From Okeania sp. SIO2C9 (lineage in GTDB: Bacteria > Cyanobacteriota > Cyanobacteriia > Cyanobacteriales > Microcoleaceae), in the NCBI RefSeq assembly GCF_010672455.1, contig NZ_JAAHGO010000029.1:1-64000 (forward strand): a DNA stretch of 64,000 bases, written 5' to 3'. Of this stretch, positions 2,941 through 46,840 are shown one piece after another. Numbering within the stretch: the stretch's first letter is position 1; the number at the start of each line of letters is the position of its first letter. Both the position numbers and the translations under genes were made by a program. The notes under the pieces are model-generated. The model was not told the DNA's origin and searched no databases. It saw only the letters and a list, made by a program, of their open reading frames with translations.

Positions 2941-4754
2941 GACAATTTCTGTTCCGGTTTAGTAATTAGATTTTGGTGGAAGGCGGGAGGTAGAAGGTTT
3001 TCTACTCCAGAAAATAAGGAATAGGGTATAGGAGGAAATAATTGACAATTTCTGTTCCGGTTTAGTAATTAGATTTTGATGGAAGGCGGGAGGTAGAAGG
3101 TTTTCTACTCCAGAAAATAAGGAATAGGGTATAGGAGGAAATAATTGACAATTTCTGTTCCGGTTTAGTAATTAGATTTTGCTGGAAGGCGGGAGGTAGA
3201 AGGTTTTCTACTCCAGAAAATAAGGAATAGAGAATAGGGGGAAATAACTGACAATTTCTGTTCCGGTTTAGTAATTAGATTTTGATGGAAGGCGGGAGGT
3301 AGAAGGTTTTCTACTCCAGAAAATAAGGAATAGGGTATAGGAGGAAATAATTGACAATTTCTGTTCCGGTTTAATAATTAGATTTTGATGGAAGGCGGGA
3401 GTTAGAAGGTTTTCTACTCCAGAAAATAAGGAATAGGGTATAGAGGGAAATAACTGACAATTTCTGTTCCGGTTTAGTAATTAGATTTTGTTGGAAGGCG
3501 GGAGGTAGAAGATTTTCTACTCCAGAAAATAGGGTATAGGGTATAGAGGGAAATAACTGACAATTTCTGTTCCGGTTTAATAATTAGATTTTTATGGAAG
3601 GCGGGAGTAGAAGGTTTTCTCCTCCAGAAAATAGGGTATAGGGTATAGGGGGAAATAATTGACAATTTCTGTTCCGGTTTAATAATTAGATTTTTATGGA
3701 AGGCGGGAGTAGAAGGTTTTCTACTCCAGAAAATAGGGTATAGGGTATAGGGGGAAATAATTGACAATTTCTGTTCCGGTTTAATAATTAGATTTTTATG
3801 GAAGGCGGGAGTAGAAGGTTTTCTCCTCCAGAAAATAGGGTATAGGGTATAGGGGGAAATAATTGACAATTTCTGTTCCGGTTTAGTAATTAGATTTTGG
3901 TGGAAGGCGGGAGAGAAAATAAGGAATAGGGTATAGGGGGAAATAATTGACAATTTCTGTTCCGGTTTAATAATTAGATTTTTATGGAAGGCGGGAGTTA
4001 GAAGGTTTTCTACTCCAGAAAATAAGGAATAGGGTATAGAGGGAAATAACTGACAATTTCTGTTCCGGTTTAGTAATTAGATTTTGTTGGAAGGCGGGAG
4101 TAGAAGGTTTTCTCCTCCAGAAAATAGGGTATAGGGTATAGAGGGAAATAACTGACAATTTCTGTTCCGGTTTAGTAATTAGATTTTTATGGAAGGCGGG
4201 AGTAGAAGGTTTTCTCCTCCAGAAAATAGGGTATAGGGAATAGAGGGAAATAACTGACAATTTCTGTTCCGGTTTAATAATTAGATTTTTATGGAAGGCG
4301 GGAGGTAGAAGGTTTTCTCCTCCAGAAAATAGGGTATAGGGTATAGGGGGAAATAATTGACAATTTCTGTTCCGGTTTAGTAATTAGATTTTGATGGAAG
4401 GCGGGAGTAGAAGGTTTTCTCCTCCAGAAAATAGGGTATAGGGTATAGGGGGAAATAATTGACAATTTCTGTTCCGGTTTAGTAATTAGATTTTGATGGA
4501 AGGCGGGAGTAGAAGGTTTTCTCCTCCAGAAAATAGGGTATAGGGTATAGGGGGAAATAATTGACAATTTCTGTTCCGGTTTAGTAATTAGATTTTGATG
4601 GAAGGCGGGAGTAGAAGGTTTTCTCCTCCAGAAAATAGGGTATAGGGTATAGGGGGAAATAATTGACAATTTCTGTTCCGGTTTAGTAATTAGATTTTGG
4701 TGGAAGGCGGGAGAGAAAATAAGGAATAGGGTATAGGGGGAAATAATTGACAAT
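2941..4754. repeat. Tandem array of about 18 units of 102-103 bp
   Basis: Each unit starts with GACAATTTCTGTTCCGG. Unit starts are at 2941, 3044, 3147, 3250, 3353, 3456, 3559, 3661, 3763, 3865, 3949, 4052, 4154, 4256, 4359, 4461, 4563 and 4665, with a truncated end at 4749. The left half is mostly 103 bp and the right half mostly 102 bp. Two units (3865 and 4665) are 84 bp, share the same internal deletion and are exactly 800 bp apart, which suggests block duplication inside the array. The 102-bp units keep one minus-strand frame open, so repetitive ORFs of 92-159 codons appear. They have no ribosome-binding site and are broken by every 103-bp unit, so I do not call them genes. Confidence 0.95.
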
Positions 4755-26367: not shown

Positions 26368-26826
26368 CTAAAATTGTGATATTAAATAATTTGTTTCTAT
26401 TGCCCATAAGTCAAAGGCTGTAGGAAATAAGTATAGAGAATTTAGGTCAATGACTTCCGACACAACAGAATCTTGCCTGACAGTATGGTTTAAACCGATA
26501 GCGTGTACTACTTCGTGAGATACCACATACTGTTGTAAATATTGATTTTCAACATATAGCAATTCATCAGATAAGAAAATATCGCTGTTGATTGGACTAT
26601 CTCCAGGGAAGTAAGCATAGCCAAGATAAGGAGTATTTGAATCTATACTAATTTTTATCTCTGCTGTATTGTAATCTACTTGTTGAAAGTCTAAATAGGT
26701 TCTGTTTTCTATGTAGTTGAAAGTATTATTAAATAAGGCTTGAACTTCTGGTGTAATACTACTGTCATAGCCATAAGTTGCATTTGGACTTAAAGCAAGT
26801 CCAGTGAGAATATCGTAATGGTACAT
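26368..26826 (-). CDS. Matrixin-like zinc metallopeptidase, copy 1
   Basis: A 152-residue metallopeptidase core without signal peptide. The zinc site HEVVHAIGLNH (HExxHxxGLxH, residues about 103-113) is that of metzincins such as matrixins and serralysins; the upstream sequence TPEVQALFNNTFNYIENRTYLDF is the family's N-terminal helix region. A Met-turn Met is not evident after the site, so the domain may be minimal. A second copy at 46376-46840 is over 90 percent identical, in the same orientation, about 20 kb away. It sits at the edge of the accessory region with other predicted hydrolases. Target unknown; an effector or bacteriolytic role is inference. Confidence 0.8.
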   Translation of the reverse strand: MYHYDILTGLALSPNATYGYDSSITPEVQALFNNTFNYIENRTYLDFQQVDYNTAEIKISIDSNTPYLGYAYFPGDSPINSDIFLSDELLYVENQYLQQYVVSHEVVHAIGLNHTVRQDSVVSEVIDLNSLYLFPTAFDLWAIETNYLISQF

Positions 26827-29449: not shown

Positions 29450-29546
29450 AAACATCTCCAGAAAAGAGGGAGCAGGGAGCAAGGAGAGAGGATTGATAAT
29501 TTCTGTAGGATAATTGATTTTATTTTTGATTCTTGGAGATATCTAA
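29450..29546. mobile_element. MITE-like element, family AGACATCTCCA
   Basis: Ends AACATCTCCAGAAAAG and TGATTCTTGGAGATATCT are imperfect inverted repeats; the interior has GAGGGAGCAGGGAGCAAGG. Better preserved members are at 32481-32622 and 35712-35808. Confidence 0.65.
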
Positions 29547-29603
29547 TCAAACGATTACAGGAGTTTTCAGGTTTGTTCACCACGTTATCACAACCAAAAA
29601 CAA

Positions 29604-29631
29604 GTAGGGACGTTCCATGGAACGTCCCTAC
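29604..29631. repeat. Perfect 28-bp palindrome GTAGGGACGTTCCA/TGGAACGTCCCTAC
   Basis: Fully self-complementary 14-base halves. Lies in the divergent-free stretch between the cyclase leader and the precursor gene at 29.9 kb. Short plus-strand ORFs across it are not supported. Confidence 0.85.
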
Positions 29632-29825
29632 TGCTGTTTACCTAAATGAAAACTGCTATAAACTTGTAAAAATAACACAATCCTCATTCCTGATACCATT
29701 GATCAACAGTAATGCTACAGTTGGAAATTGCGAGAATAACAAATATTATTTTCGATGTTGGTTACGCTGTCTTAAAGAGTTTCGAGGGATTGGTAAAATC
29801 ATTTTGCTTGGATGAAAACAAACTT

Positions 29826-29874
29826 GGGAGAATTGATTCATACTAGAAATCGGACAAATCTAGACAATTCTCCC
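29826..29874. repeat. Hairpin element GGGAGAATTG...CAATTCTCCC, copy 1
   Basis: Outer stem GGGAGAATTG/CAATTCTCCC, inner stem CTAGA/TCTAG. Nearly the same sequence, including loop bases ATTCATACTAGA, lies at 36003-36050 upstream of the patatin. Here it is 39 bases after the stop of the minus-strand precursor gene, so it could act as its 3' end structure. Confidence 0.75.
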
Positions 29875-29912
29875 AACATTTATTTTGGAAGTAATTCTGT
29901 CGAATTTAGCTT

Positions 29913-30149
29913 CTAAACAATGCCACAAGTAGCAAAGCACATTGCCCTTGACAGCCCGGAAAATATCCGACACCCACAATCAACTTGCTCTGAAAATTTA
30001 ACGGGATCGTTTAGATTCACATTAGAACCCCGCACAAAACTATATTTTTGTTGCAAATTGCCTTTACTGTCTCGAAACTTTACTAAGCTCATTTCAGGCT
30101 CTAGGATTTCTCTCCTGTTTACGGGTAAAGATTGGTTGGGAAGTTTCAT
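29913..30149 (-). CDS. Cys-rich RiPP-type precursor peptide (LPNQSLPVNR leader)
   Basis: A 78-residue peptide starting MKLPNQSLPVNRREIL; AGGAG lies five bases before ATG 30149, which decides the start against an upstream in-frame ATG. The N-terminus shares the leader LPxQSxPVxR with the other three peptides of the locus. The C-terminal part, CGCRIFSGLSRAMCFATCGI, has five Cys and resembles the end of the peptide at 32248 (CYKLTGMARNMCMAAY): C-x3-G-(L/M)-(S/A)-R-x-M-C. No GVEAS site is present. Last gene of the minus-strand locus, 117 bp after the methyltransferase. Product unknown; thiol modification or disulfides are plausible. Confidence 0.7.
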   Translation of the reverse strand: MKLPNQSLPVNRREILEPEMSLVKFRDSKGNLQQKYSFVRGSNVNLNDPVKFSEQVDCGCRIFSGLSRAMCFATCGIV

Positions 30150-30266
30150 AACTACTCCTTTTGTTGAGGATACTAATACAATATCAAAGGTTGTATTCAT
30201 CGACAAAGTGACACTAAATCATTCCAGTATTTTTGGCGACGATTTATCTTAGTCTTGACTTTCAAT

Positions 30267-31124
30267 TTAGTGGCGCTTTAGTAAAATAAAGCCAGACATC
30301 CTCCGCCACATTTCCCAATGCTCCGGCGTTTGTAATTGAGCCAGCAGCGATTTTGGCAAGACTTCCCGATGTAAGCGCTGACCTTCTTCCAGCAGCGATC
30401 GAAATTCAACGCTCTTCCAACCATATTGCCTAAAGAACTCAGTGCCTTCTTCAGGAGCGAATTGCAAAGTTGCTTCACCGGAATTAAGCGAACTATTTAC
30501 GCTTTTCTGGAAATATCGCAACGCACTTGGCGAGGCAAGATCCGTTAACCACCACTGAAACTGCGGCTGTGCATACAAGTCAGTCGCCAGTGTAGCAACT
30601 TGTTCTACAGTCATATAAATCAGCAGCCCTTCCGTAAACACCAGTCCTCGTTTTGCTGCCATACCGACACTCTTAAAGAAAATATGGCGGGCAATAATGT
30701 CAGTAATATCTAAAGCAACTGATTGCAGAATACACCGCGACAGCAGACCAGCGAGTTTGTCAATTTTGTAAGCAAGGACAACATCCAGATCGCATTCGTA
30801 CCACCGTAGGGAAGTCGGTAGAGGCAGTCGATAAGGTCTTGTATCGAAACCCGCTCCTAAACTCAGCACTGTATCAACGCTATTTTCTTCAACAGTCCGC
30901 AGAATCAACTCATCCATCACGCAAGTACGCACCGCACAGCCTGCTGCTCCTGCTTTTCCTCCTGGCATTGCCTCTACAAGCTTTTTGCCCCGCTCCCCAG
31001 CTAAAATTTGGGCGTAGGCATCCTGGAATAGAGAATCTGGACGCTCAGTTTCCAAGGCGCGATAGGTTGCTGTCAAGAAGGCTGTATCAGAAATAGATTC
31101 AACAGGTAAAGAAGTCAGATTCAT
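30267..31124 (-). CDS. PPM1/LCM-family class I SAM methyltransferase
   Basis: A 285-residue methyltransferase of the leucine carboxyl methyltransferase (PPM1/Tcmp) family. Seen: ALETERPDSLFQDAYAQILAG, MDELILRTV, SAM-binding motif I VLSLGAGFDTRPYRL, WYECDLDVVL, LVFTEGLLIYMTVEQV. Members methylate carboxyl groups (C-terminal Leu of PP2A, polyketide intermediates). Its position inside the precursor-protease locus, all on the minus strand, makes it the likely tailoring enzyme, perhaps methylating a peptide carboxylate. That is inference; a carboxyl methyltransferase is known in linear cyanobactin clusters (as part of a methyltransferase-prenyltransferase fusion). No SAM-radical or YcaO gene accompanies it. 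Confidence 0.85.
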   Translation of the reverse strand: MNLTSLPVESISDTAFLTATYRALETERPDSLFQDAYAQILAGERGKKLVEAMPGGKAGAAGCAVRTCVMDELILRTVEENSVDTVLSLGAGFDTRPYRLPLPTSLRWYECDLDVVLAYKIDKLAGLLSRCILQSVALDITDIIARHIFFKSVGMAAKRGLVFTEGLLIYMTVEQVATLATDLYAQPQFQWWLTDLASPSALRYFQKSVNSSLNSGEATLQFAPEEGTEFFRQYGWKSVEFRSLLEEGQRLHREVLPKSLLAQLQTPEHWEMWRRMSGFILLKRH

Positions 31125-31382
31125 TGTGCGGTTTTTAGTACGAGTTCATTCAGGGATTGACTAGGCATTCCGGGTTCTGCAACTTTTGTAGAAATGCTCG
31201 ATGTTTGTTTTCTATACAACCACCGAGGAAGTTATTTAGTTGCAGTTTCCTATTGATATAGGATAAGATGGTTTTGATTAATGCTTTGGGGACTGGCTTG
31301 GTAGTTGTTTTGCATACCACCACCGAGCCAACCATAGGGCTACTGTTTGCTAGCAACCTAGACTAGGTTGCTTTGCTCAGAG

Positions 31383-31550
31383 TTAGATCAGAGAAGTGAG
31401 AATTGGAGCAGCAATTGGAGCTACATGCTTGGCAATATCCAGAGCTGTGTTATACCAAGCGCTGGCTTCAACACCATTTTGCTCTGAAATTGCACCCGGA
31501 GTTAGAGTTAGATTCCGTTCGACGGGTGTAGATTGTTTGGGCAGGTTCAT
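31383..31550 (-). CDS. Cyanobactin-like precursor peptide with GVEAS site, peptide A
   Basis: A 55-residue peptide too short for default gene finders. Leader MNLPKQSTPVERNL matches the cyanobactin-type LPxQxxPVxR motif. It is followed by ISEQNGVEAS, where GVEAS is the exact recognition sequence that PatA-type proteases cut after in cyanobactin precursors (family knowledge). The predicted core starts AWYNTALDIAKHVAP and runs 25 residues to the C-terminus; it is hydrophobic and helix-like, has no Cys, and lacks the follower (AYD/SYD) needed for PatG macrocyclisation. RBS AAGG nine bases before ATG 31550. Its closest relative is the peptide at 31909. Confidence 0.78.
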   Translation of the reverse strand: MNLPKQSTPVERNLTLTPGAISEQNGVEASAWYNTALDIAKHVAPIAAPILTSLI

Positions 31551-31584
31551 AATTTTGCCTTTTTATCCTTAATGTTTTTAGAAG

Positions 31585-31616
31585 TTGTTCGGTAGTTGTT
31601 GACAACCACCGAACAA
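31585..31616. repeat. Inverted repeat TTGTTCGGTAGTTGT/ACAACCACCGAACAA
   Basis: A near-perfect 15-bp stem with a two-base loop between precursor genes. Two related hairpins with CGGTGGTTG arms lie at about 31200-31240 and 31296-31330, between peptide A and the methyltransferase. They may be processing or attenuation structures in the operon, or terminators (no T-run follows on the minus strand). Confidence 0.6.
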
Positions 31617-31678
31617 GGAATGTTGTTACCGCTGTTTAGCTAGGCTGATCTTAAATCCGCCTGCAACGGAAGTGTTAT

Positions 31679-31866
31679 CAGAAACCGGGTTTGTGGGAGG
31701 TAGATGTTTACATTGTAGCATCTAAAACCAACCCGGTTTCTGGGTTTCTGGCAGTATTAGGTACTACCGGTGTTGTAAGAAACCGGGTTTTTGGGAGTTA
31801 GATGTTATAAATTGTGGCATCTAAAACTAACCCGGTTTCTGGGTTGCTGGCAGTATTAGATACTAC
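31679..31866. repeat. Tandem pair of AAACCGGGTTT...AACCCGGTTTCT hairpin units
   Basis: Two direct copies of about 95-100 bp, each opening with AGAAACCGGGTTT and closing with AACCCGGTTTCTGGG, then CTGGCAGTATTAG(G/A)TACTACC. They lie between two precursor genes. The same GAAACCGGGTTTCTT string occurs inside the element at 27781. Confidence 0.8.
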
Positions 31867-31908
31867 CAGATTTGATATGTTTAGCTAGGCTGATTAGCGA
31901 TCGCTGAA

Positions 31909-32100
31909 TTACAGATGACTCACAACGTTAGCAGCAATAGGAAGTGCTGTCTTAATACCAGATATAATGTGATCGTACCAAGCACTGGCTTCAATACCAC
32001 TTTGGTCAGAAATTGCAGCTGGAGCTAGACTCCTTTCCACAGGGGCAACTTGCTTAGGAAAGTTAATCATTTTAGGCGTAACTTGTTTGGAAATGTCCAT
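31909..32100 (-). CDS. Cyanobactin-like precursor peptide with GIEAS site, peptide B
   Basis: A 63-residue peptide. The leader motif is present twice in diverged form: SKQVTPKM then NFPKQVAPVERSL. It is followed by ISDQSGIEAS, again the PatA-type cleavage site, and a predicted 24-residue core beginning AWYDHIISGIKTALP, amphipathic and without Cys. Alignment with peptide A is continuous (P-V-E-R, A-I-S-(D/E)-Q, G-(V/I)-E-A-S-A-W-Y), so the two are paralogues with variable cores. AAGGAA lies shortly before ATG 32100. Follows peptide C by about 150 bp on the same strand. Confidence 0.78.
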   Translation of the reverse strand: MDISKQVTPKMINFPKQVAPVERSLAPAAISDQSGIEASAWYDHIISGIKTALPIAANVVSHL

Positions 32101-32247
32101 TACTTTTCCTTGTTTTTTCTTGAGTGTTTACTTGTTTTGTGCATCCGGATACTTACCACTGGTAACGTGGTACGTGTCCGGCTTGGATTGGAACTTTCAT
32201 CGTGGTTTCTCCTGTTTGAGTAATTTTTAATCGGTAATCACTGATTT

Positions 32248-32436
32248 CTAATAGGCAGCCATACACATATTCCTAGCCATACCTGTTAGCTTATAACAGT
32301 CATTAAAGTCAGAACTGCTGACACCTGAACTATCTAATAAGGGGGATGTATGGTTTAAATTCCGAAGTACGGGCTGAGATTGCTTAGGCAGATTATTCAT
32401 CAGTATGGGCTGGGATTGCTTGGGCAGACTATTCAT
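32248..32436 (-). CDS. Cys-containing RiPP precursor with duplicated leader motif, peptide C
   Basis: A 62-residue peptide; AGGAGG nine bases before ATG 32436 fixes the start. The leader LPKQSQP occurs twice in tandem (residues 4-10 and 16-22; MNSLPKQSQPILM, MNNLPKQSQPVLRN). A GVSSS stretch stands where peptides A and B have GVEAS or GIEAS. The C-terminal core NDCYKLTGMARNMCMAAY has two Cys and resembles the end of the peptide at 29913. The first gene after the protease, from which it is now parted by a MITE-like element (32481-32622). Confidence 0.78.
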   Translation of the reverse strand: MNSLPKQSQPILMNNLPKQSQPVLRNLNHTSPLLDSSGVSSSDFNDCYKLTGMARNMCMAAY

Positions 32437-32480
32437 ATCAATACTCCTCCTAATTTGGCAAATTTTTACAAGATTTTTAA

Positions 32481-32622
32481 TAGACATCTCCAAAAATCAA
32501 AAATAAAATCAATTATTACCCAGAAATTATCAATTATTCCCCTCCCAGGAGGGGAGGGGCTAGGGGTGGGTTCCCTGTTCCCTGTTCCCTGTTCCCTGTT
32601 CCCTCTTTTCTGGAGATGTCTA
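32481..32622. mobile_element. MITE-like element inside the RiPP operon, family AGACATCTCCA
   Basis: TAGACATCTCCA and TGGAGATGTCTA are perfect inverted ends; the interior has an AGGAGGGGAGGGG stretch and five GTTCCCT repeats. It lies between the protease stop and peptide C, so an operon transcript would have to read through it. Confidence 0.8.
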
Positions 32623-32643
32623 ATAAGATTATGCAGGATATTT

Positions 32644-34665
32644 TTAGTTAGACATAGACCAAGTACGCATCTGACCAATCGTGACAGGCATCAGATCGCT
32701 CACATCCACAGTAAATCGAAATATTTTTTTTGCCCGGCGATCGTTCTCTGGATCGAAAAACTTTAGTTTTACATCCCAACAATCTGAATCCATCCGACAG
32801 ATTGGGCTTTTTTCTGTCTCAATGCTGGCGAGCTGCATTCCCTGACCAGTTGCCTCAGTTAGTGCTTGTGCTGCTTGGAATGCATTTGTCGCTGCGAAAT
32901 TGAGGGCGCGCTCATTGGATGTTTGACCCAGATTCCGAAATTCGTAGTACATCCGATTGAGAAATTCCTTCAGAGAAGCTCGCGTAGCTTCCTCGTGCTG
33001 ATTAGCTGTTTGTGGTGTAGCTGTTGGTGGTGTAGCTGTTTTTGCTGCCTCAACCGCCATTGATACCAATTGGTTAACATTCCACTCGTACATCCCGCGA
33101 ACTTCTGGAACGATTACAGGAACAACTTGTCCGGAAAATAACCTGACGCTCTTACCTGTCAAGACCCCTGGAATTGAAACCCGGGAAACATATTCAGGAT
33201 CGTCTTCTGGTTTTATCTGCCCCTTGAGAGCTGAAATCAAGTTGTGATAAGCTTGCTCGGTAAAAGCTCCACCAGGTTCAATTGCGTAAATGGGTGTTAG
33301 CTCTAGGTTTAACGTCCAAATCAGTGATTTTGCTTCGTAGGAATTTTGTTCGAGATAATCCACCATCTGGCTAAGAACGTATGGATTTGGCGGGAAAGGT
33401 GGCTCCCCTGCAACATAAGGCATTAGCTGTTTAAAGCTATCTCGACGAGCCTCTGTGCCAAAATCGTAACTAACTGTTCCCATCACATAAGCTAGGGATT
33501 TTGCACCGGCACCGTTACATCCACAGTCTTCAGAAGCTACCACACCACTAGGGGTGACAGCAGGTGTTGCTAGTTGGCTAGGCGTTACAGTCATTGTATT
33601 CTCCAAATTACTTACAGTTTCTGAGACAAGTTCAGATGTTATGACTTCTGCCACTATCTCGCCTGTATCTGCTAGCTGGTTGGCGGATGCCTCAAGATTG
33701 AGGTCAGTCGCCTCACTAGGTTGAATCATTTCTTGCTCTAATTTTTCCTCAGACAATTCTTTTGTTCCTCCTTGTGATATTAAGGCATAAGCCTCTGGAA
33801 TATTTAGACTTCCGACCAAAAAGCGACGGCAATCTGAACCCGCTTCTGGGGTGCAAGGTGAAGCACTCTTAAGAATAGCCTCGCGGACGGCATTGGGGTC
33901 TGGCTTTTCACCCCGTTGTACCTGCACGCTCAGTAGCAGCGCCACAATTCCAGATACAATGGGAGTTGCAAAGCTGGTGCCGCTTTTGAGAGCAGTACCG
34001 CCCCCCGATGCCGCACCCAAGATGTTTTCACCAGGAGCGAGAATGCCTTGGGTTTGATATGTTTCCCCCCAATTACTGAAATCGAAGGGTAATCCCTGTG
34101 CATTCATTGCACCCACAGCTAGAACTGAAGGTAAGGCAGCTGGAACGTGAAGACACTGACACCCATCATTTCCTGCTGCAGCAACAATCATAACGTTACT
34201 GTCGTTGCAGAATTTGACCGCTTTCGCCAGCATTGGGTCTGCCTCTGTCGCTTGAGCAAGTTGACCCCCACTAATGTTAATTACATGGGCACCTGCTTCA
34301 ACCGCTTGATTGATAGCGCGTGCCAGATCTAGCTGGGAAAGGGAACCTCTGCGATTATCGGAAAACACTGGCACAATGATTCCGCGACAGCTAGGAGCAA
34401 TACCGGGAACGTTACTGCCATGCTGACCGAAGATGATGCTGGTAATGTGCGTTCCGTGACTCGACATCCGCCCAACTGTAGCGTTCTCGGAAATTGTGGT
34501 TTTAACTCTGGTGAGGTTAGCACCGTCAAAGCAGGGATGAGATTGGTCTACTGGACCGTCAAGAATGGCTACACAGATTTGGGAGTCGCCTTTGGTCTCA
34601 GACCACAGTTGTTTGAGTCCCGGTAATTCTGAAATATCAGTAACGTTTGTTTGTGTAGCTGCCAT
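32644..34665 (-). CDS. PatA/PatG-type cyanobactin maturation protease (subtilisin S8)
   Basis: A 673-residue protein. N-terminal S8 domain with intact triad: D36 (ILDGPVDQSHP), H70 (SSHGTHITS), S231 (LKSGTSFATPIVSG). After a linker rich in Glu, Thr and Ser comes the C-terminal domain typical of PatA and PatG: SYDFGTEARRDSFKQLMPYV, SLIWTLNLELTPIYAIEP, RVSIPGVLTGKSVRLFSGQ, NRMYYEFRNLGQTSNERALN, EKSPICRMDSDCWDVKLKFF, and FRFTVDVSDLMPVTIGQ. PatA removes the leader at G(L/V)E(A/P)S; PatG macrocyclises. Insertions that mark PatG's macrocyclase are not recognised, and the neighbouring precursors have GVEAS/GIEAS and no follower, so a leader-removing role is favoured. Cytoplasmic, no signal peptide. 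Two promoter copies lie upstream. Confidence 0.92.
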   Translation of the reverse strand: MAATQTNVTDISELPGLKQLWSETKGDSQICVAILDGPVDQSHPCFDGANLTRVKTTISENATVGRMSSHGTHITSIIFGQHGSNVPGIAPSCRGIIVPVFSDNRRGSLSQLDLARAINQAVEAGAHVINISGGQLAQATEADPMLAKAVKFCNDSNVMIVAAAGNDGCQCLHVPAALPSVLAVGAMNAQGLPFDFSNWGETYQTQGILAPGENILGAASGGGTALKSGTSFATPIVSGIVALLLSVQVQRGEKPDPNAVREAILKSASPCTPEAGSDCRRFLVGSLNIPEAYALISQGGTKELSEEKLEQEMIQPSEATDLNLEASANQLADTGEIVAEVITSELVSETVSNLENTMTVTPSQLATPAVTPSGVVASEDCGCNGAGAKSLAYVMGTVSYDFGTEARRDSFKQLMPYVAGEPPFPPNPYVLSQMVDYLEQNSYEAKSLIWTLNLELTPIYAIEPGGAFTEQAYHNLISALKGQIKPEDDPEYVSRVSIPGVLTGKSVRLFSGQVVPVIVPEVRGMYEWNVNQLVSMAVEAAKTATPPTATPQTANQHEEATRASLKEFLNRMYYEFRNLGQTSNERALNFAATNAFQAAQALTEATGQGMQLASIETEKSPICRMDSDCWDVKLKFFDPENDRRAKKIFRFTVDVSDLMPVTIGQMRTWSMSN

Positions 34666-34753
34666 GCTTGAACCTCATAATTTTGTCAGTTGCCGAAAGT
34701 TTTCTGTCGGTCTTGGACCGGAGACAAGGTTGAATTTTTCTTTTTCCTGTCTT

Positions 34754-34791
34754 CTACTAATAAGACGATTTTGCTCTTCACTTTCTGAATT
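34754..34791 (-). promoter_or_regulatory. Island promoter motif, proximal copy of the RiPP operon
   Basis: Minus strand AATTCAGAAAGTGA then CGTCTTATTAGTAGAA; C of CAGAAA at 34787, C of CGTC at 34767 (20 nt). About 100 bases before the protease start at 34665. Confidence 0.8.
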
Positions 34792-35022
34792 TTTCGAGTA
34801 GATTTTTTTCTTAACTCGATGCACACAAGGAAAAACATATCTTACACTTGCTAATAACTCAATTGGAATAGTTGATAATTGACTACATCAAGTCCCTACC
34901 AAGGTTGTAGTTTTGACTGTGTAGTTAACCGCTCTCAAAAGTGTTATGAGTGTAAGCCTCAAAATGTGCGACCTTAAAAAGAAAGGGACTTAGATAGAAA
35001 AATTTCCTGTCTTTTTTACCTT

Positions 35023-35060
35023 CCACTTATATGACGTTTCCCAGTAGTAATTTCTGAATT
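35023..35060 (-). promoter_or_regulatory. Island promoter motif, distal copy of the RiPP operon
   Basis: Minus strand AATTCAGAAATTACTACTGG then CGTCATATAAG; 35056 to 35036 (20 nt). Same sub-type as 27880 and 39125 (spacer ACTWCTGGGAA). Tandem arrangement with 34754 mirrors the pair at the C2-like gene. Confidence 0.7.
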
Positions 35061-35192
35061 TTTAATCGACTATTTTGATAAAGTTTTCATTGAGATTATT
35101 GCTATAAGTCTTTCTATATCTATTTTTTAGCTTCCATATCAGCCTATAAGTTTTATTTGATAAAATTTTTCTCCTTAAAATCTCACTCAAAA

Positions 35193-35229
35193 AATTCAGA
35201 AATTGATAAGCATGATCGTCTTATTAGTA
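35193..35229 (+). promoter_or_regulatory. Island promoter motif upstream of the secreted repeat protein
   Basis: AATTCAGAAATTGATAAGC then CGTCTTATTAGTAGAA; C of CAGAAA at 35197, C of CGTC at 35217 (20 nt). The start codon at 35278 is 58 bases after the -10-like block. Confidence 0.82.
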
Positions 35230-35277
35230 GAACAACAACATTCTGATTGACAAACTTGATTCGGAGGAAGTCCAAAA

Positions 35278-35577
35278 ATGAAATCAGTAATTCGCATGGC
35301 TCTTGTTTTGCTACTGGTTATTGGTAGCTGGTCTGGTTTTTTCACCGATAATGCTCGGGCAGGTATGAACGACTACATTGCTCAGGCTTACCAAAGAACA
35401 GAGGCAGGCACAAACCCTAAAGAAAACAGCAATAAAAAGGAAGAAACAAACGCTAGTAATGGTAGTAATGTTAGTAACGTTAATGTTCGGGCAGGTATGA
35501 ACAACTACATTGCTCAGGCTTACCAAAGAACAAACGCAGACACAAATGCTAAAGAAAACAGCAATAAAAAGAAATAA
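35278..35577 (+). CDS. Small exported protein with a duplicated RAGMNxYIAQAYQRT unit
   Basis: A 99-residue protein with a clear signal peptide (MALVLLLVIGSWSGFF, cleavage after NARA). The mature part is two copies of RAGMN(D/N)YIAQAYQRT, each followed by a Lys/Asn-rich tail (TN(P/A)KENSNKK), joined by an SNGSNVSNVN linker. It is therefore exported, small and basic. RBS GGAGG lies ten bases before ATG. One island promoter copy precedes it. A further decayed piece of the linker sequence (AGTAATGGTAGTAACG) follows the stop, so the unit may once have been present more times. Family not recognised; an immunity protein, toxin or surface peptide are all possible. Confidence 0.75.
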   Translation: MKSVIRMALVLLLVIGSWSGFFTDNARAGMNDYIAQAYQRTEAGTNPKENSNKKEETNASNGSNVSNVNVRAGMNNYIAQAYQRTNADTNAKENSNKKK

Positions 35578-35808: not shown

Positions 35809-36002
35809 AAAGCAATTAGGCATTGGTAAATGATTGTATGATTTTTAATAGTCAGTAGTCAGTAGTTAAAACAGCTTTTTTCCTGACTGTCAATCTTGGT
35901 CTGATACAAATTTCATACCTGATTTTACCAATGCTGCGATTATTTTTAAATTCAAAAATTAATCGTTTTTTTTCCTTGCATTGACAAAATATTAACAACC
36001 TT

Positions 36003-36050
36003 GGGAGAATTGATTCATACTAGAGAACGCACAAATCTAGACAACTCTCC
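36003..36050. repeat. Hairpin element GGGAGAATTG...CAACTCTCC, copy 2, before the patatin
   Basis: Same sequence and stems as 29826-29874 (GGGAGAATTGATTCATACTA; TCTAGACAA). It ends 26 bases before the patatin start, so it would fold in the 5' untranslated region close to the ribosome-binding site. Confidence 0.75.
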
Positions 36051-36075
36051 TATTAGCTATATGGAGAAAAAAATT

Positions 36076-37212
36076 ATGAGTTTTAAGATTCTTTGTCTAG
36101 ATGGTGGAGGTATCCGGGGAGTTTTATCAGCTAAACTTCTGCAAGAGGTTGAAACCACTGTCAAAGAAAAAAAAGGACAAGAATTACACGAATATTTCGA
36201 CTTAATTTCTGGTACATCCACTGGCTCTATTCTGGCTGCGGGCGTTGTCTGTCAGATGAAAGCTAAAGACATGATTGACATCTACCTAGAAGAGGGAAAA
36301 AATATCTTTTTAGAGTCAGTACGTCAGCAGCGAAACTCTTTTCGACCTTCTACTATAATGCGAAAAATGATCGGGAGTTATGCCTTATATCCCCACGAAC
36401 AGGGAGAGCAGGGTTTGGCTAAAATCTTGCAGAAAAAATTGATTCACCAGGAGTTGGGTTCTCCAAAGATTAGCGAGATAACGCGACCCCATATTCTGAT
36501 TCCTGCTTATGACGTTTATTCCCGAAATACAACGTGGTTTACTAATAACCCCCCGAATTCAGGAGTATGGTATGACAATATCGAACTATGGAAAATCTGC
36601 ACTGCCTCAGCTTCTGCTCCTACCTTTTTTCCCCCTTATGAACTACCCTATAACGAAGAGGAAAGTCTGCCTCATATTGATGGAGGAGTATCGGCCAATA
36701 ATCCTGTTTTAGTGGCGATCGCTCATGCCTTATGGATTCAAAAAAACAATGGATTAAAATTGAGCGATATTGCGGTACTTTCTATCGGTACTGGCAATAC
36801 AACTTGTCCCTACAGTTATGAAGAAATCAAAGAGTGGGGATTACTGGGTTGGGTGCAGCACATACCGGACATTTTTCTGAATCCTTCTGCGAAAAATTCT
36901 GAAGATATCTGTAACCAAATTCTGGACAGTGTAGGGGGCGATATCCTCCGTTTGGATTTCGATCTTAATGACCGTTTAGCAAGGGAAAAACAGCCTGGTA
37001 GAGTCAGAAAGCTACTAGAAAAGCCTCATAACAGATATATTAGGGATAAAAGAAACCACTATCAAGAAATAAATGAAGATATCGACGATCCGGATAATTG
37101 TCAAGACCTGATCGATGCTGCTGAATGTTATCTTGACTGTGGGGATGTTTATTATGAGAAGCCAAGGGTTCCAGTGCGAGAGGCAATTCAAAAGTTTATC
37201 GGATCTCATTAA
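36076..37212 (+). CDS. Patatin-like phospholipase
   Basis: A 378-residue patatin domain protein (lipid acyl hydrolase, phospholipase A2-like). Seen: oxyanion loop CLDGGGIRGVLSAKLL, nucleophile S48 in SGTSTGS, and catalytic Asp in HIDGGVSANNP. All catalytic elements are intact. ATG 36076 is preceded by GGAG at nine bases; an upstream in-frame TTG (36001) lies in the repeat element and would add 25 unrelated residues. No signal peptide. Patatins of this type serve as interbacterial effectors and as CBASS effectors, but no cyclic-nucleotide synthase of the CD-NTase family is adjacent (the cyclase at 28.2 kb is of another class). Role here unknown. Confidence 0.9.
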   Translation: MSFKILCLDGGGIRGVLSAKLLQEVETTVKEKKGQELHEYFDLISGTSTGSILAAGVVCQMKAKDMIDIYLEEGKNIFLESVRQQRNSFRPSTIMRKMIGSYALYPHEQGEQGLAKILQKKLIHQELGSPKISEITRPHILIPAYDVYSRNTTWFTNNPPNSGVWYDNIELWKICTASASAPTFFPPYELPYNEEESLPHIDGGVSANNPVLVAIAHALWIQKNNGLKLSDIAVLSIGTGNTTCPYSYEEIKEWGLLGWVQHIPDIFLNPSAKNSEDICNQILDSVGGDILRLDFDLNDRLAREKQPGRVRKLLEKPHNRYIRDKRNHYQEINEDIDDPDNCQDLIDAAECYLDCGDVYYEKPRVPVREAIQKFIGSH

Positions 37213-37474: not shown

Positions 37475-37659
37475 AAACGAGAAAGGAACTCAATCAATCT
37501 CTGTTTTGAAATACTGAAAGTTAAGGACGGAAAAGTTTTTCCAGAAATACCCCTCTTTAAAATAAGTAATTTCTGCACATAGCGATCGTACTACCAAATA
37601 CGACTCGCTGTTGCTTTTTGGGCATCAAATCACAATCACAAATTGACACGGAGAATAAC

Positions 37660-38805
37660 ATGGCTGATAACCTTCTTATTGTTTTTGGTGGAACAACACA
37701 ATCAGAACCCCAAACTGTATTTACATTTCAAGACTTGTCAACTGCTTCAGTTGACGTCTTACAAATTAATCTACTCACGATAAATCCTAATGTTAGTTTT
37801 ATTTCAATTAATAATAAAGACAAGGAATATCTGTCTAAACTAGATGGAAACTGGTTAGAAGGCACCCCGACTGGCACTTTGCGAAATTTACAAGTCAAAT
37901 TACTATTGCAAGAAAACGATGTTTTAAAAGCACTTAAAACAAAAATTGAAAAAGTAAACTGGAGCCACGCCAACTACACTAAGGATTCAGATGCAAGAGG
38001 AATGCAGAAAGAAACTTTTTATAGTTTTTCACAAGTTTCACAACAACTCATTGTAGATTTTTTGGAATGGACAAAAAAACAAGGCAATGATTATAAAAAT
38101 GTATTTATTTTGGCACATAGTCGAGGTTGTGCCTTGGCAATCCAGTCCCTATCAAAATCAAATGTAACAGAATTATCTGATAATTTATTAACACAAAAAC
38201 TCAAACGTATCGTCTTGCTAGATCCAGTCTCAAAAAATGCTGATAATAATCTGAGTTGGTTTTCTAGCAAGGAAAGTGTAGATGAAAAAATTATTACTGC
38301 AAATGCGAAAATCGTCGAACTCCTAAGCAAAAAAAACAAGGAGATACACATTATTGTCAAGTCGGTGAAAAAAACGATTAACTATAAGTGTTATGCAGAT
38401 CGTTTAGTTGGTACGAAACAAGGTTACTTGATTAACAATCCCGATTCTCCCGATCCTAAGATGGAAAATGTCTATGTGCATATTGCTGCTATGGCGCACG
38501 AGGGAATGCTGGGAAAAGATTTTCGCAATAACTTCAAAAACTACCGAAAAATAATATCCAATGACAATTGGAACGAAATTTTTTGGAATGATAAAATAGT
38601 AGATTTAACAAAAATGAAAAACTCAGATGCTTTAACCCAATACAGAGATAGCAAGAAGAGTGTAAGCAAAATAGTTAAAGAAGTATCCTCAAGCACCAAT
38701 GATTATTTCAAGAATTTTAATGCATTTTCTAACAATGAAGCATTGTTGGATCGCCAAAGAGCTTTTGTACATTGTGTAGGCAAAAAAGTTGATATGCTTT
38801 CCTAA
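37660..38805 (+). CDS. Alpha/beta-hydrolase-like protein (lipase/esterase type)
   Basis: A 381-residue protein. The N-terminus MADNLLIVFGG is a first beta strand with an oxyanion-type GG; the nucleophile elbow is ILAHSRGCALA (S154, HSRG, as in many esterases); candidate acid is Asp in RIVLLDPVSKN and candidate His in VHIAAMAHEG. No signal peptide. GGAG seven bases before ATG 37660 decides the start over an upstream TTG (37618). An island promoter copy lies 190 bases upstream. Family and substrate are not recognised; a lipase or thioesterase effector fits the neighbourhood (patatin, cyclase, peptidases). Confidence 0.72.
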   Translation: MADNLLIVFGGTTQSEPQTVFTFQDLSTASVDVLQINLLTINPNVSFISINNKDKEYLSKLDGNWLEGTPTGTLRNLQVKLLLQENDVLKALKTKIEKVNWSHANYTKDSDARGMQKETFYSFSQVSQQLIVDFLEWTKKQGNDYKNVFILAHSRGCALAIQSLSKSNVTELSDNLLTQKLKRIVLLDPVSKNADNNLSWFSSKESVDEKIITANAKIVELLSKKNKEIHIIVKSVKKTINYKCYADRLVGTKQGYLINNPDSPDPKMENVYVHIAAMAHEGMLGKDFRNNFKNYRKIISNDNWNEIFWNDKIVDLTKMKNSDALTQYRDSKKSVSKIVKEVSSSTNDYFKNFNAFSNNEALLDRQRAFVHCVGKKVDMLS

Positions 38806-42509: not shown

Positions 42510-43181
42510 ATGACAACTGTTCAACTGGATTTGATACCAAATTTAACTATTTCGTACACAACCCTAATTTCTCAAATGACACAGACAAAAGAACGATTCA
42601 AAAAACTCGAAGTTCCCTATTTCTCTCAGTTGGATAACGATACGGCCTATCACGGACCTGGTTACAGACAATGTAATCTAACTTCTTGTTCGATGTTTTT
42701 AGCCTTCCTCAGACCCGATCTTGTTGAAAAAGCCAAATCAGAGGGTTATCGTGAATTTGAAAGTATGTACGGGAAGACACTAGATAAGTATGGCGATACT
42801 ACGGATCATCAAGCAAATACTCGTGCTTTAAGAGATTTTGAAGTAGATACCTATTTTTCCTATACACTTTCAATTGAAGATTTAATCCTGTGCTTGCAAG
42901 CAGGATATCCAGTAGTTATGGGTATGGCATATAAAGGTAGCGGACATATGGTGGTAGCTACGGGATTCGATCTAGACAAACAGAAAATTTTCATACACGA
43001 TCCTTATGGTATTAGAGATGGAGCGGGCAATACTTACCAGGTAGGGGTAAAAGCAGCTTACGATCCTTGCAGTTTCGATCTTTTAAAACAAATTTGGGTC
43101 GATCAGGGAAAAGAAGCAGGATGGGGTCGAGTCACTGTTTCTGTTAAAGGAAAACCAACAGGATTACCTCAAAATTTGTAG
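42510..43181 (+). CDS. C39-like cysteine peptidase domain protein
   Basis: A 223-residue papain-like fold protein of the peptidase C39-like family 2 type. Seen: VPYFSQLDNDTAYHGPGYRQ, the nucleophile Cys in RQCNLTSCSM, catalytic His in YKGSGHMVVATGFD, and Asp in FIHDPYGIRDG. Members cleave peptides or peptidoglycan cross-links. No signal peptide and no ABC domain, so it is not a classic bacteriocin exporter. ATG 42510 has no close ribosome-binding site; the internal Met at MTQTKERFKKLEVPYF is a possible alternative start. It is in the same transcription unit as the small ORF upstream and precedes a GH19 hydrolase gene, which suggests a cell-wall attack set (inference). Confidence 0.82.
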   Translation: MTTVQLDLIPNLTISYTTLISQMTQTKERFKKLEVPYFSQLDNDTAYHGPGYRQCNLTSCSMFLAFLRPDLVEKAKSEGYREFESMYGKTLDKYGDTTDHQANTRALRDFEVDTYFSYTLSIEDLILCLQAGYPVVMGMAYKGSGHMVVATGFDLDKQKIFIHDPYGIRDGAGNTYQVGVKAAYDPCSFDLLKQIWVDQGKEAGWGRVTVSVKGKPTGLPQNL

Positions 43182-43705: not shown

Positions 43706-44488
43706 ATGGAAACTATCAAAGCAATTAGTCAAACTGTTCTCAAAAAAGCAGTAGCTCAAGCTTCTCAACTTCCTGAGAGTCAAAAAACATCTGTTGCTCA
43801 AGGAAAAACTTATGAAGTTCTCAATTATTCTCCAGCAGAACAGGGACATTACCAAATTGAACTCAATAATAATGCTGGAACCTGGTATATTTTCTCCGAT
43901 CATTGGGAGCTATCCTGGGAAAATCAGGCAGAAATTATAGAATCTAATAACTCAGATTTATTGACTGCTGAAAATCTGAAAGCAATTATGCCCGATGCTT
44001 CTGATGATGATATTCATAGATATGTCGCTCCTCTCAATCAAGTTATACATGATTTTGATTTAGCAACAACAACTAGAGCTTGTGCATTTATTGCTCAAAT
44101 TGCCCATGAAAGCGGTTCTTTCTATTATAAAGAAGAATTAGCTAGTGGTGCAGATTATGAGGGACGAGAGGATTTAGGTAATACCCAACCAGGAGACGGC
44201 AAACGATATAAAGGAAGGGGTCTGATTCAACTTACTGGTAGAGCTAATTATCGTGAATGTGGTCAAGCATTAGATTTGCCTTTAGAAGACAACCCGGAAA
44301 TGGCTGTTCAAGACCCTTATACGAATGCAGCGGTGGCAGCTTGGTATTGGGAAAGTCGCGATATTAACGAGTATGCAGACCAAGGAGATTTTGAAAAAGT
44401 CACCCGTCTGATAAATGGTGGTCTGAATGGTTATAGCGATCGCCTGCAATTTTGGGAAAGAGCTAAAAGAGTTTTTGGTATTGATTAA
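43706..44488 (+). CDS. GH19 chitinase/endolysin-like glycoside hydrolase
   Basis: A 260-residue protein. Residues about 1-75 are a small N-terminal domain (LNYSPAEQGHYQIELNNNAG, TWYIFSDHWEL) of the type attached to cyanobacterial cell-wall hydrolases. The remainder is a GH19 catalytic domain: CAFIAQIAHESGSFYYKEE (catalytic Glu), RYKGRGLIQLTGRANYRECG, NAAVAAWYWESR, TRLINGGLNGYSDRL. This arrangement is common in phage endolysins and secreted lysozyme-like enzymes that cut chitin or peptidoglycan. No signal peptide, so release would need a holin, a secretion device or lysis. It lies 525 bp after the C39-like peptidase. Confidence 0.9.
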   Translation: METIKAISQTVLKKAVAQASQLPESQKTSVAQGKTYEVLNYSPAEQGHYQIELNNNAGTWYIFSDHWELSWENQAEIIESNNSDLLTAENLKAIMPDASDDDIHRYVAPLNQVIHDFDLATTTRACAFIAQIAHESGSFYYKEELASGADYEGREDLGNTQPGDGKRYKGRGLIQLTGRANYRECGQALDLPLEDNPEMAVQDPYTNAAVAAWYWESRDINEYADQGDFEKVTRLINGGLNGYSDRLQFWERAKRVFGID

Positions 44489-46375: not shown

Positions 46376-46840
46376 TCAATATTGTGAGATTAAATAATTT
46401 GTTTCTATTGCCCATAAATCAAATGCAGTGGGCAATAAGTGTAGAGAATTTACGTCATCAACTACTTCCGATACAACAGAATCTTGCCCGACAGTATGGT
46501 TTAAACCGATAGCGTGTACTACTTCGTGAGATACCACATACTGTTGTAAATATTGATTTTCAACATATAGCAATTCATCAGATAAGAAAATATCGCTGTT
46601 GATTTGATGCTCTCCAGGAAAGTAAGCATAGCCAAGATAAGGAGTATTTGAATCTATACTAATTTTTATTTCTGCTGTATTGTAGTCTACTTGTTGAAAG
46701 TCTAAATAAGTTCTGTTTTCTATGTAGTCGAAAGTATTGTTAAATAAGGCTTGAACTTCTGGTGTAATACTACTGTCATAGCCATAAGTTGCATCTGGAC
46801 TTAAAGCAAGTCCAGTCAGAATATCATAATTATCAGACAT
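46376..46840 (-). CDS. Matrixin-like zinc metallopeptidase, copy 2
   Basis: A 154-residue near-copy of the peptidase at 26368-26826, with the same zinc site (HEVVHAIGLNH) and only scattered substitutions; a two-residue difference lies near the C-terminus (EVVDDVNS against EVIDLNS) and the first residues differ (MSDNYDIL against MYHYDIL). GAGG ten bases before ATG 46840 supports this start, better than in copy 1. The upstream regions of the two copies are unrelated, so the duplication covered little more than the gene. No signal peptide. Confidence 0.8.
   Translation of the reverse strand: MSDNYDILTGLALSPDATYGYDSSITPEVQALFNNTFDYIENRTYLDFQQVDYNTAEIKISIDSNTPYLGYAYFPGEHQINSDIFLSDELLYVENQYLQQYVVSHEVVHAIGLNHTVGQDSVVSEVVDDVNSLHLLPTAFDLWAIETNYLISQY

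Follow-up and report, generated by a model that had tools for sequence, protein, structure and literature searches.

A short-peptide gene cassette was analysed in the cyanobacterium Okeania sp. SIO2C9, within positions 1 to 64,000 of contig NZ_JAAHGO010000029.1 (the window, meaning the whole stretch of 64,000 nucleotides). The best explanation of the locus as a whole, and in our judgement a probable one, is that it is a cassette for ribosomally synthesized and post-translationally modified peptides (RiPPs) drawn from the cyanobactin toolkit, which has the leader protease only and gives rise to linear, paired helical peptides. The locus lies on the minus strand and contains, in order of transcription, the protease, precursor D, a mini-open reading frame (mini-ORF), precursors C and B, a methyltransferase and the PatB-like protein A. 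No YcaO gene is present within it. The locus is considered to be more than a chance arrangement, because its order is conserved in six further genomes and the pooled ratios of nonsynonymous to synonymous change (pN/pS) of its seven open reading frames (ORFs) lie between 0.23 and 0.49. Several of its features had been proposed from the letters and an ORF list (the sequence-only reading); that reading overlooked the mini-ORF with its RNA hairpin, the split in the protease family and the link to cell-wall hydrolase genes. Numbers preceded by G and L are our handles for genomes and loci.

The cassette protease is PatA-like

The only protease of the cassette (32644-34665, minus strand, 673 residues) scored 827 bits against TIGR03895, the PatA/PatG family (cut-off 421), and carried the Pfam domains S8, PatG_D and PatG_C, which bears out the PatA/PatG C-terminal domain assigned to it by the sequence-only reading. 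Against Protein Data Bank (PDB) chains it scored 399 and 369 bits to 4h6w ('N-terminal cyanobactin protease') and 4h6v, the latter of which we take to be PatA, and 206 bits to the thiazoline oxidase/subtilisin-like chains 4h6x and 4aks, which we take to be the PatG macrocyclase. A PatG-type protease encoded elsewhere in the same genome demonstrated the opposite pattern, with 338 bits to the PatG-type and 255 bits to the PatA-type chains. The spacing from the catalytic Asp to the His is 35 residues in the window protease and the macrocyclase insertion is missing; where both motifs were found, the spacing was 33-36 residues in PatA-type and 72-86 in PatG-type proteases, the extra stretch presumably being the macrocyclase insertion. 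These comparisons show the cassette protease to be PatA-like.

A member of the TIGR03895 family was detected at E <= 1e-120 in 109 of the 388 genomes of the order. Forty-five members were collected for a midpoint-rooted tree, from which two fragments (both from L082) were dropped and in which one long N-terminal extension was trimmed; group labels were assigned from scores, spacing and neighbours. Among the 43 members in the tree, 11 PatG-type and 9 canonical PatA-type rows lay on one side of a split with support of 100/100. The other side held 23 proteases for which the fetched DNA contained no PatG partner (a number which, like the 74 ORFs below, is not a frequency, as the loci beyond the seven were hand-picked, many among the matches listed in the order-level scan, and some flanks were short), and the window clade of seven was placed inside it, again with support of 100/100. 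Taken from the sequences, this side of the split would show a separate branch of the PatA family that works without PatG.

Precursors B and C carry predicted amphipathic helical cores

Precursor B (31383-31550, minus strand) is composed of a leader, the site GVEAS and a 25-residue core, AWYNTALDIAKHVAPIAAPILTSLI. Precursor C (31909-32100, minus strand, with an alternative possible start at 32070) has a leader, GIEAS and a 24-residue core, AWYDHIISGIKTALPIAANVVSHL. As the sequence-only reading had it, the site stands directly ahead of cores that start with AWY and run to the stop codon. The LPxQxxPVxR leader and a G(L/V)E(A/P)S-type site are present in both, with Ile for Leu/Val in C; G(L/V)E(A/P)S is the PatA site consensus given in the accessible part of PMC10885120. 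Precursor D (32248-32436, minus strand) has a doubled LPKQSQPV leader, which matched TIGR03678 at E 5e-4, below the cut-off, and a 20-residue tail, DFNDCYKLTGMARNMCMAAY, with two Cys after GVSSS; that D is cleaved after GVSSS is a guess.

Four precursors with a common leader had been proposed. B, C and D do share the leader, and A (29913-30149, minus strand) was rejected as the fourth on account of a weak match to TIGR04220 (PatB; E 9e-4, below the cut-off) and its alignment with PatB-type proteins from canonical loci. A shares with these a leader-like start and a central N-x-P region and has an extra CGC...C...C tail, CGCRIFSGLSRAMCFATCGIV. PatB is reported to be non-essential (PMC4663559, in the part of its text available).

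The helical hydrophobic moment was calculated for 20 helical cores from 13 loci, chosen by hand; the B core of Okeania sp. SIO3B5 and at least seven leader-motif peptides (from L065, L066, L072, L073, L074 and L078) were left out. The moment exceeded that of shuffled sequences at p < 0.012 in 18 of the 20, one core from G496 (p 0.05) and the core from G608 (p 0.25) falling short, and the best helical angles were 91-100 degrees. The moment was 0.40 for the C core (p 0.0006) and 0.35 for the B core (p 0.0018). These data show that the cores have helical amphipathicity, and B and C are predicted to be amphipathic helices, 25 and 24 residues long, with the stop codon as their end point. The proposal of linear, follower-less, helix-like peptides from a cyanobactin-type protease is supported by the PatA-like protease, the missing PatG insertion, the lack of YcaO and of a second PatA/PatG-family protease in four of the seven cassette genomes, and the moments of 18 of 20 cores. 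The monoisotopic masses of the window cores are 2661.489 Da (B) and 2588.411 Da (C). Both cores are reminiscent of short amphibian membrane peptides.

Further helical-looking precursors were seen at the protease-only loci L065, L066, L072, L073, L074, L078 and L091, and cysteine-rich precursors at L067, L071, L075, L132 and L134, as well as at L072, L073 and L078. The cysteine-rich cores are in tandem in L067, L071, L132 and L134, and there are six Cys in ~22-26 residues in L067 and L132. To judge from these sequences, the tandem cores are possibly disulfide-rich peptides cut by the same kind of protease.

Macrocyclase, follower and YcaO are absent from the locus

Followers and cleavage sites were located with regular expressions written for this analysis. 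A follower was found in none of 74 leader-motif ORFs near the 23 protease-only proteases, the 74 including PatB-like proteins, a few spurious ORFs and one ORF interrupted by Ns, and 3 of the 23 loci yielding none. At 11 canonical loci a follower was found in 6 of 10 motif ORFs, and three of the other four were PatB-type. No PatG-type macrocyclase was detected in the fetched flanks of the 23 proteases. These results show the absence of macrocyclase, follower and YcaO. The lack of a cyclodehydratase gene, which had been put forward for this DNA, is true of the locus, but three YcaO genes and two further PatA/PatG proteases are present elsewhere in the genome. Missing YcaO was, moreover, rejected as the trait that sets the cassette apart: YcaO is optional in cyanobactins and is also missing from anacyclamide- and piricyclamide-type clusters (PMC4663559, as far as the accessible text goes). 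The distinguishing traits are the missing macrocyclase and the missing follower. At one protease-only locus, L071, a YcaO gene lies within ~9 kb.

The cassette is conserved and under purifying selection

The cassette order was kept in Okeania sp. SIO3B5 (L053), Oscillatoria sp. PCC 10802 (L049), Cyanobacteria bacterium UBA2566 (L050), Roseofilum halophilum (L051, G471), Roseofilum acuticapitatum (L052, which is the same locus as L045) and G157 (L044), a member of the window's family, which with the window's own genome gives seven. Across these loci the protease was 73-95% and the methyltransferase 69-94% identical. Pooled pN/pS was lowest in the protease (0.23) and the methyltransferase (0.28), followed by D (0.30, 7 loci), A (0.36), the mini-ORF (0.39), B (0.40) and C (0.49), the pairwise values being mutually non-independent. 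Within C the leader gave 0.28 and the core 0.69, that is, a conserved leader and a fast core; the corresponding values in B were 0.35 and 0.46. For C alone, the window compared with Okeania sp. SIO3B5 gave 1.21, while the B core is identical in these two and the leaders of D and C appear doubled in both. Taken together, these results show that the locus is conserved and subject to purifying selection.

R. halophilum has a single helical precursor (L051, 3991-4152) that combines a C leader with a B-type core, as might follow from a deletion between tandem precursors. When precursor C was used as a query against 386 genomes of the phylum, 66 had a match at E <= 1; at E <= 1e-10 matches were confined to G157, G213 and the window's own genome, each as a tandem pair (the second copy in the own genome being B, 1.2e-10). 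The remaining matches were at 0.02 or worse and mostly chance-like, although that in G030 is a real leader-motif precursor. A plasmid search with B gave no useful match.

A methyltransferase accompanies the peptides

The methyltransferase (30267-31124, minus strand, 285 residues) is an LCM-family S-adenosylmethionine-dependent enzyme, matching PF04072 at E 1.6e-25 (90.6 bits, cut-off 22.3) and TIGR00027 with 104 bits, over its cut-off, and its assignment as a PPM1-type enzyme in the sequence-only reading agrees with these profiles. The closest solved chain was ML2640 (2ckd). Orthologues of at least 60% identity were present in 11 of the 388 genomes of the order. Since known LCM-family enzymes methylate carboxylates, capping of a free C-terminus is the natural guess, and by this analogy the enzyme probably caps the C-terminal carboxylate, most likely the Ile/Leu of B and C.

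A mini-ORF and a covarying hairpin precede precursor C

A mini-ORF of 15 codons, MKVPIQAGHVPRYQW, with an AGGAG ribosome-binding site, lies between D and C (32153-32200, minus strand), its stop codon 52 nucleotides ahead of C, and an RNA hairpin covers its 3' half (32145-32181, minus strand). The coding signal comes from codons 4-12 of 14 aligned copies: at least 13 of the 14 rows agreed at 15 of 18 first and second codon positions and at 0 of 9 third positions (Fisher p 4.7e-5). AGGAG stood ahead of the mini-ORF in 11 of the 12 copies inspected. The commonest mini-peptide is M-x-(V/I/L)-P-I-Q-A-G-H-(V/I)-P-R with a variable tail, from which UBA2566, Roseofilum, G439 and G429 depart. The hairpin has 13 pairs with 87.4% of cells paired; 18 cells were changed on both sides compared with a shuffled mean of 5.7 (0 of 500 shuffles), and covariation was 0.352 compared with at most 0.086 when the structure was slid. 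Double changes occurred in five pairs, which was not unusual (3.1 in shuffles, 53/500). The alignment of 14 used for covariation holds related sequences, 7 coming from one protease clade. The mini-ORF coding signal and the covariation of the hairpin are nevertheless shown by these calculations.

The element was previously undescribed. A search of Rfam 15 over 29500-35500 gave two matches at E <= 1, both below the gathering score and neither on the element. A covariance model, the search filters of which may miss weak copies, recovered 22 copies at E <= 0.01 in 19 of the 388 genomes, one good copy being in the window's own genome. The target was a leader-motif precursor in 18 of the 22 and a phage-type lysozyme (endolysin) in three, G529 and G552 (L131 and L135) and G496 (L074, 8930-9850), which are of one genus. 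The last is degenerate and lies in the same region as a peptide cassette. One copy was unassigned (G471, R. halophilum, contig 89; L133 near 9800, minus strand): it is followed by a very short ORF and, ~420 bases on, by an ATP-binding cassette (ABC) transporter gene, with no motif precursor downstream. Eight copies were outside the set used to build the model, four of them before precursors, three before lysozymes and one unassigned. The copies in G312 and G237 and the lysozyme copy of G496 scored only 32-37 bits and had degenerate mini-peptides. No copy was found at E <= 1 at the 11 canonical loci, or at the protease-only loci L066, L067, L076, L083 and L105.

Stable folding was more widespread than the element. 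Sequences 5' of 13 element-preceded precursors had a mean z of -2.75 against shuffles (2 of 13 were not more stable), and those 5' of 12 other leader-motif precursors with a G-x-E/D-A/P-S-type site, element-bearing G439 being counted among them, had a mean z of -3.15 (3 of 12 above -0.5). Mean z was -1.12 5' of A (n=10) and -0.25, not stable, 5' of D (n=8). A second hairpin without a mini-ORF lies 5' of the window's B (31585-31616, minus strand), where folding gave a z of -5.94 and 0 of 200 shuffles was as low. Stable leaders are thus common in the operon, and what stands out is the covarying hairpin of the mini-ORF. The mini-ORF of both Roseofilum loci shares 4 nucleotides with the start of the next precursor; given this overlap, and the position of the element at the translation start of C, translational coupling or attenuation is the simplest guess at its action.

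Neighbouring genes

A patatin-like phospholipase gene (36001-37212, plus strand; PF01734, E 2.4e-28) is a conserved neighbour, a homologue of at least 71% identity being near the cassette in five of the six other loci in varying orientation; its membership of the system is uncertain. It is one of six effector-like genes near the cassette (26368-26826, 36001-37212, 37618-38805, 42510-43181, 43706-44488 and 46376-46840), which comprise two very similar matrixin-type peptidases, the patatin, a weak alpha/beta hydrolase match, a C39-like peptidase and a glycoside hydrolase family 19 (GH19) endolysin. Further away (3474-4753, minus strand) are ORFs that are built of repeated units (SIISPYTLYPIFWRRKPSTPAFHKN) and resemble tandem DNA repeats. 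A contractile injection system occupies 62000-63973 (minus strand) and the contig beyond (L140, L141), with genes for a tape measure protein (PF19268, 387 bits), a spike tip (PF19267), tube and baseplate, and four sheath-like genes. A fixed link of the cassette with this system on the same contig was considered and dropped: in seven of nine other genomes (G213, G426, G437, G455, G471, G496 and G590) the sheath matches were on contigs other than that of the cassette or its remnant, and G157 and G569 gave no sheath match.

Proposed pathway and alternatives

The pathway that we propose begins with the LPxQxxPVxR leader, which would be recognized and bound by the PatA-type protease. Cleavage after G(V/I)EAS would free two linear amphipathic helical peptides, B and C, the C-termini of which would be set by the stop codon; by analogy, D would be cut to a peptide of ~20 residues, probably with one disulfide. 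No ring would form, as both the macrocyclase and the follower are missing. A methyl ester on the C-terminal carboxylate would make the helix less anionic, A would be accessory, and the 5' leader of C, with its mini-ORF and overlapping hairpin, probably tunes expression of that gene. That the element also precedes an endolysin gene in one genus points to the control of potentially self-harmful products. The window, L050 and L052 have endolysin-like genes at most ~10 kb away from the cassette, which likewise suggests products in need of restraint. Membranes, whether of competitors or of kin of the producer, would be the most likely target of the peptides. A broader proposal is put forward tentatively, and we hold it with a little less than even confidence: protease-only PatA proteins may define a distinct RiPP family that recurs and whose products are linear peptides lacking a follower (amphipathic helices and cysteine-rich cores). 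In it, a dedicated leader element, the QAGHVPR mini-peptide translated across the covarying hairpin, may coordinate the precursors with a cell-wall hydrolase, the latter in at least one genus, in an undescribed regulon of antagonism or self-lysis.

Several observations weigh against the pathway. The window's own genome carries canonical PatA, PatG and YcaO genes elsewhere, so that action in trans is possible there. The net side-chain charge of the 20 cores ranges from -3 to +1, reaching +1 in only 5, which is unusual for antibacterial helices. One core, searched against the PDB, had no match. A dedicated exporter could not be seen, and no ABC transporter was found among the window proteins scanned at 26-47 kb. 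Folding 5' of the methyltransferase was also stable (mean z -2.20, n=6, strong in three), so stable folding is not confined to precursors. Finally, G437 (L090), of the Roseofilum genus, keeps the methyltransferase, A and the patatin, with the block from the protease through D, the mini-ORF and C to B replaced; comparison of L090 10462-13281 with UBA2566 L050 8426-12876 indicates that the block was swapped as a unit between flanks of 90-97% identity, and the replacement includes an ORF of 355 residues that has no Pfam match and contains a GHSRG motif like that of serine hydrolases.

An ordinary cyanobactin pathway, with cyclodehydratase and macrocyclase encoded elsewhere and B and C becoming heterocycles or macrocycles, would account for the cyanobactin-like leader and cleavage motif and for the three YcaO genes and canonical PatA- and PatG-type proteases of the window's genome, but we consider it highly improbable. 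In four of the seven cassette genomes (G157, G213, G426 and G471), YcaO was not detected at E <= 1e-10, and the only TIGR03895 protein at E <= 1e-80 is the cassette protease itself; ring chemistry in trans is therefore excluded there, unless the assemblies (95-99% complete) miss both genes every time, and on this evidence the explanation was rejected. G569, which has a related locus, likewise has no YcaO at that threshold and a single TIGR03895 protein (completeness 95-100% with this genome included). The PatG follower missing from all 74 ORFs, and window cores that are 24-25 residues long and have no Cys, also contradict it. In the window's own genome (G000) the canonical genes are on contigs 112 and 285, the PatA- and PatG-type proteases ~74 kb apart on one and a YcaO 61-81% identical to canonical-locus YcaO on the other; the only leader-motif ORF beside them in the fetched flanks was PatB-type.

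Three other alternatives concern parts of the proposed pathway and are compatible with one another. The strongest, though still not the one that we favour, is that the methyltransferase is a hitch-hiking neighbour that does not act on these peptides. Its persistence in G437 without the peptides means that it may have another substrate, and the methyltransferase gene is missing from the fetched DNA of L065, L072 and L078, which encode GVDPS/GVEAS helical precursors, both being reasons for caution over capping; yet 10 of the 11 orthologues adjoin a protease from the protease-only side and helical GVEAS precursors, the eleventh is at the same site with the cassette replaced, and nine remoter homologues (41-49% identity) are located elsewhere, with no PatA protease or motif peptides in their fetched flanks. 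It is rather unlikely, but deserves consideration, that the peptides are processed as proposed and act in or on the producer, in programmed lysis, kin signalling or membrane stress. The lack of an exporter, the little or no positive charge, the leader element shared with an endolysin gene and the nearby endolysin-like genes of L050, L052 and the window would fit such a role, while the fast cores of C beside their conserved leaders resemble antagonistic or recognition peptides rather than housekeeping ones. Somewhat less likely again is that the mini-ORF is not a functional peptide gene, with only the hairpin being of importance or the mini-ORF being a precursor leader truncated after duplication. 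VPIQAGHVPR does resemble the leader LPIQAxPVxR, half of the mini-ORF is inside the covarying stem, and degenerate forms occur in G312, G237 and the third copy of G496. However, the codon periodicity extends to codons 4-6, outside the stem, and the ribosome-binding site and the overlap in both Roseofilum loci also favour translation of the mini-ORF.

Relation to known systems

The cassette shares with the cyanobactins (patellamide, anacyclamide, piricyclamide) the PatA-type protease, the LPxQxxPVxR leader, the G(L/V)E(A/P)S-type site and possibly a PatB-type protein, A being PatB-like but below the TIGR04220 cut-off. It differs in having no PatG macrocyclase and no follower, cores of 24-25 rather than up to 20 residues, several unlike precursors per locus, the LCM methyltransferase and the mini-ORF/hairpin leader. 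It is not filed as a cyanobactin, because the macrocyclase and follower, two defining features, fail. Linear cyanobactins (aeruginosamides, viridisamide) offer a parallel in being linear and, by analogy, in a methylated C-terminus; they are prenylated, thiazole-bearing peptides of 3-5 residues from clusters with bimodular methyltransferase/prenyltransferases (PMC4663559, accessible text). According to the available part of PMC3877893, all cyanobactin clusters feature A and G proteases, and one Oscillatoria sp. PCC 10802 sequence stands alone in the A-gene phylogeny as a 'loner sequence'. This strain carries the cassette (L049) and five TIGR03895 matches, and the loner need not be the cassette gene; neither precursors nor a protease-only system are described in that text.

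Daptides are linear and helical, with several per cluster. They are RiPPs with an enzymatically modified C-terminus (PMC12338566, from the accessible portion). The daptide set of oxidative decarboxylase, aminotransferase and N-methyltransferase (dimethylation) is absent from the locus, which has only the S8 protease, the LCM methyltransferase and small ORFs, and the C-terminal chemistry of the cassette would instead be esterification. Two-peptide class II bacteriocins consist of two similar-sized amphipathic peptides encoded in tandem, with a double-Gly leader and a peptidase-ABC exporter. The cassette likewise encodes paired, similar-sized amphipathic peptides in tandem, but has an EAS site instead of the double-Gly leader and no peptidase-containing ABC transporter in the cluster. 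No description of a protease-only system was found in the open-access literature so far as its text was available (subscription papers being outside the search), nor is one mentioned in the available parts of PMC4558948 and PMC3610870.

If the proposed pathway is correct, cyanobactin-type processing would be extended beyond small macrocycles to linear helices of bacteriocin size and to cysteine-rich peptides, by a leader-dependent protease with an apparently wide tolerance of the core, and PatB would be recast as a leader-bearing relative of the precursors. The mini-ORF and hairpin provide a searchable marker for peptide and lysin genes in cyanobacteria, and raise a testable question as to how potentially self-harmful small peptides are regulated.

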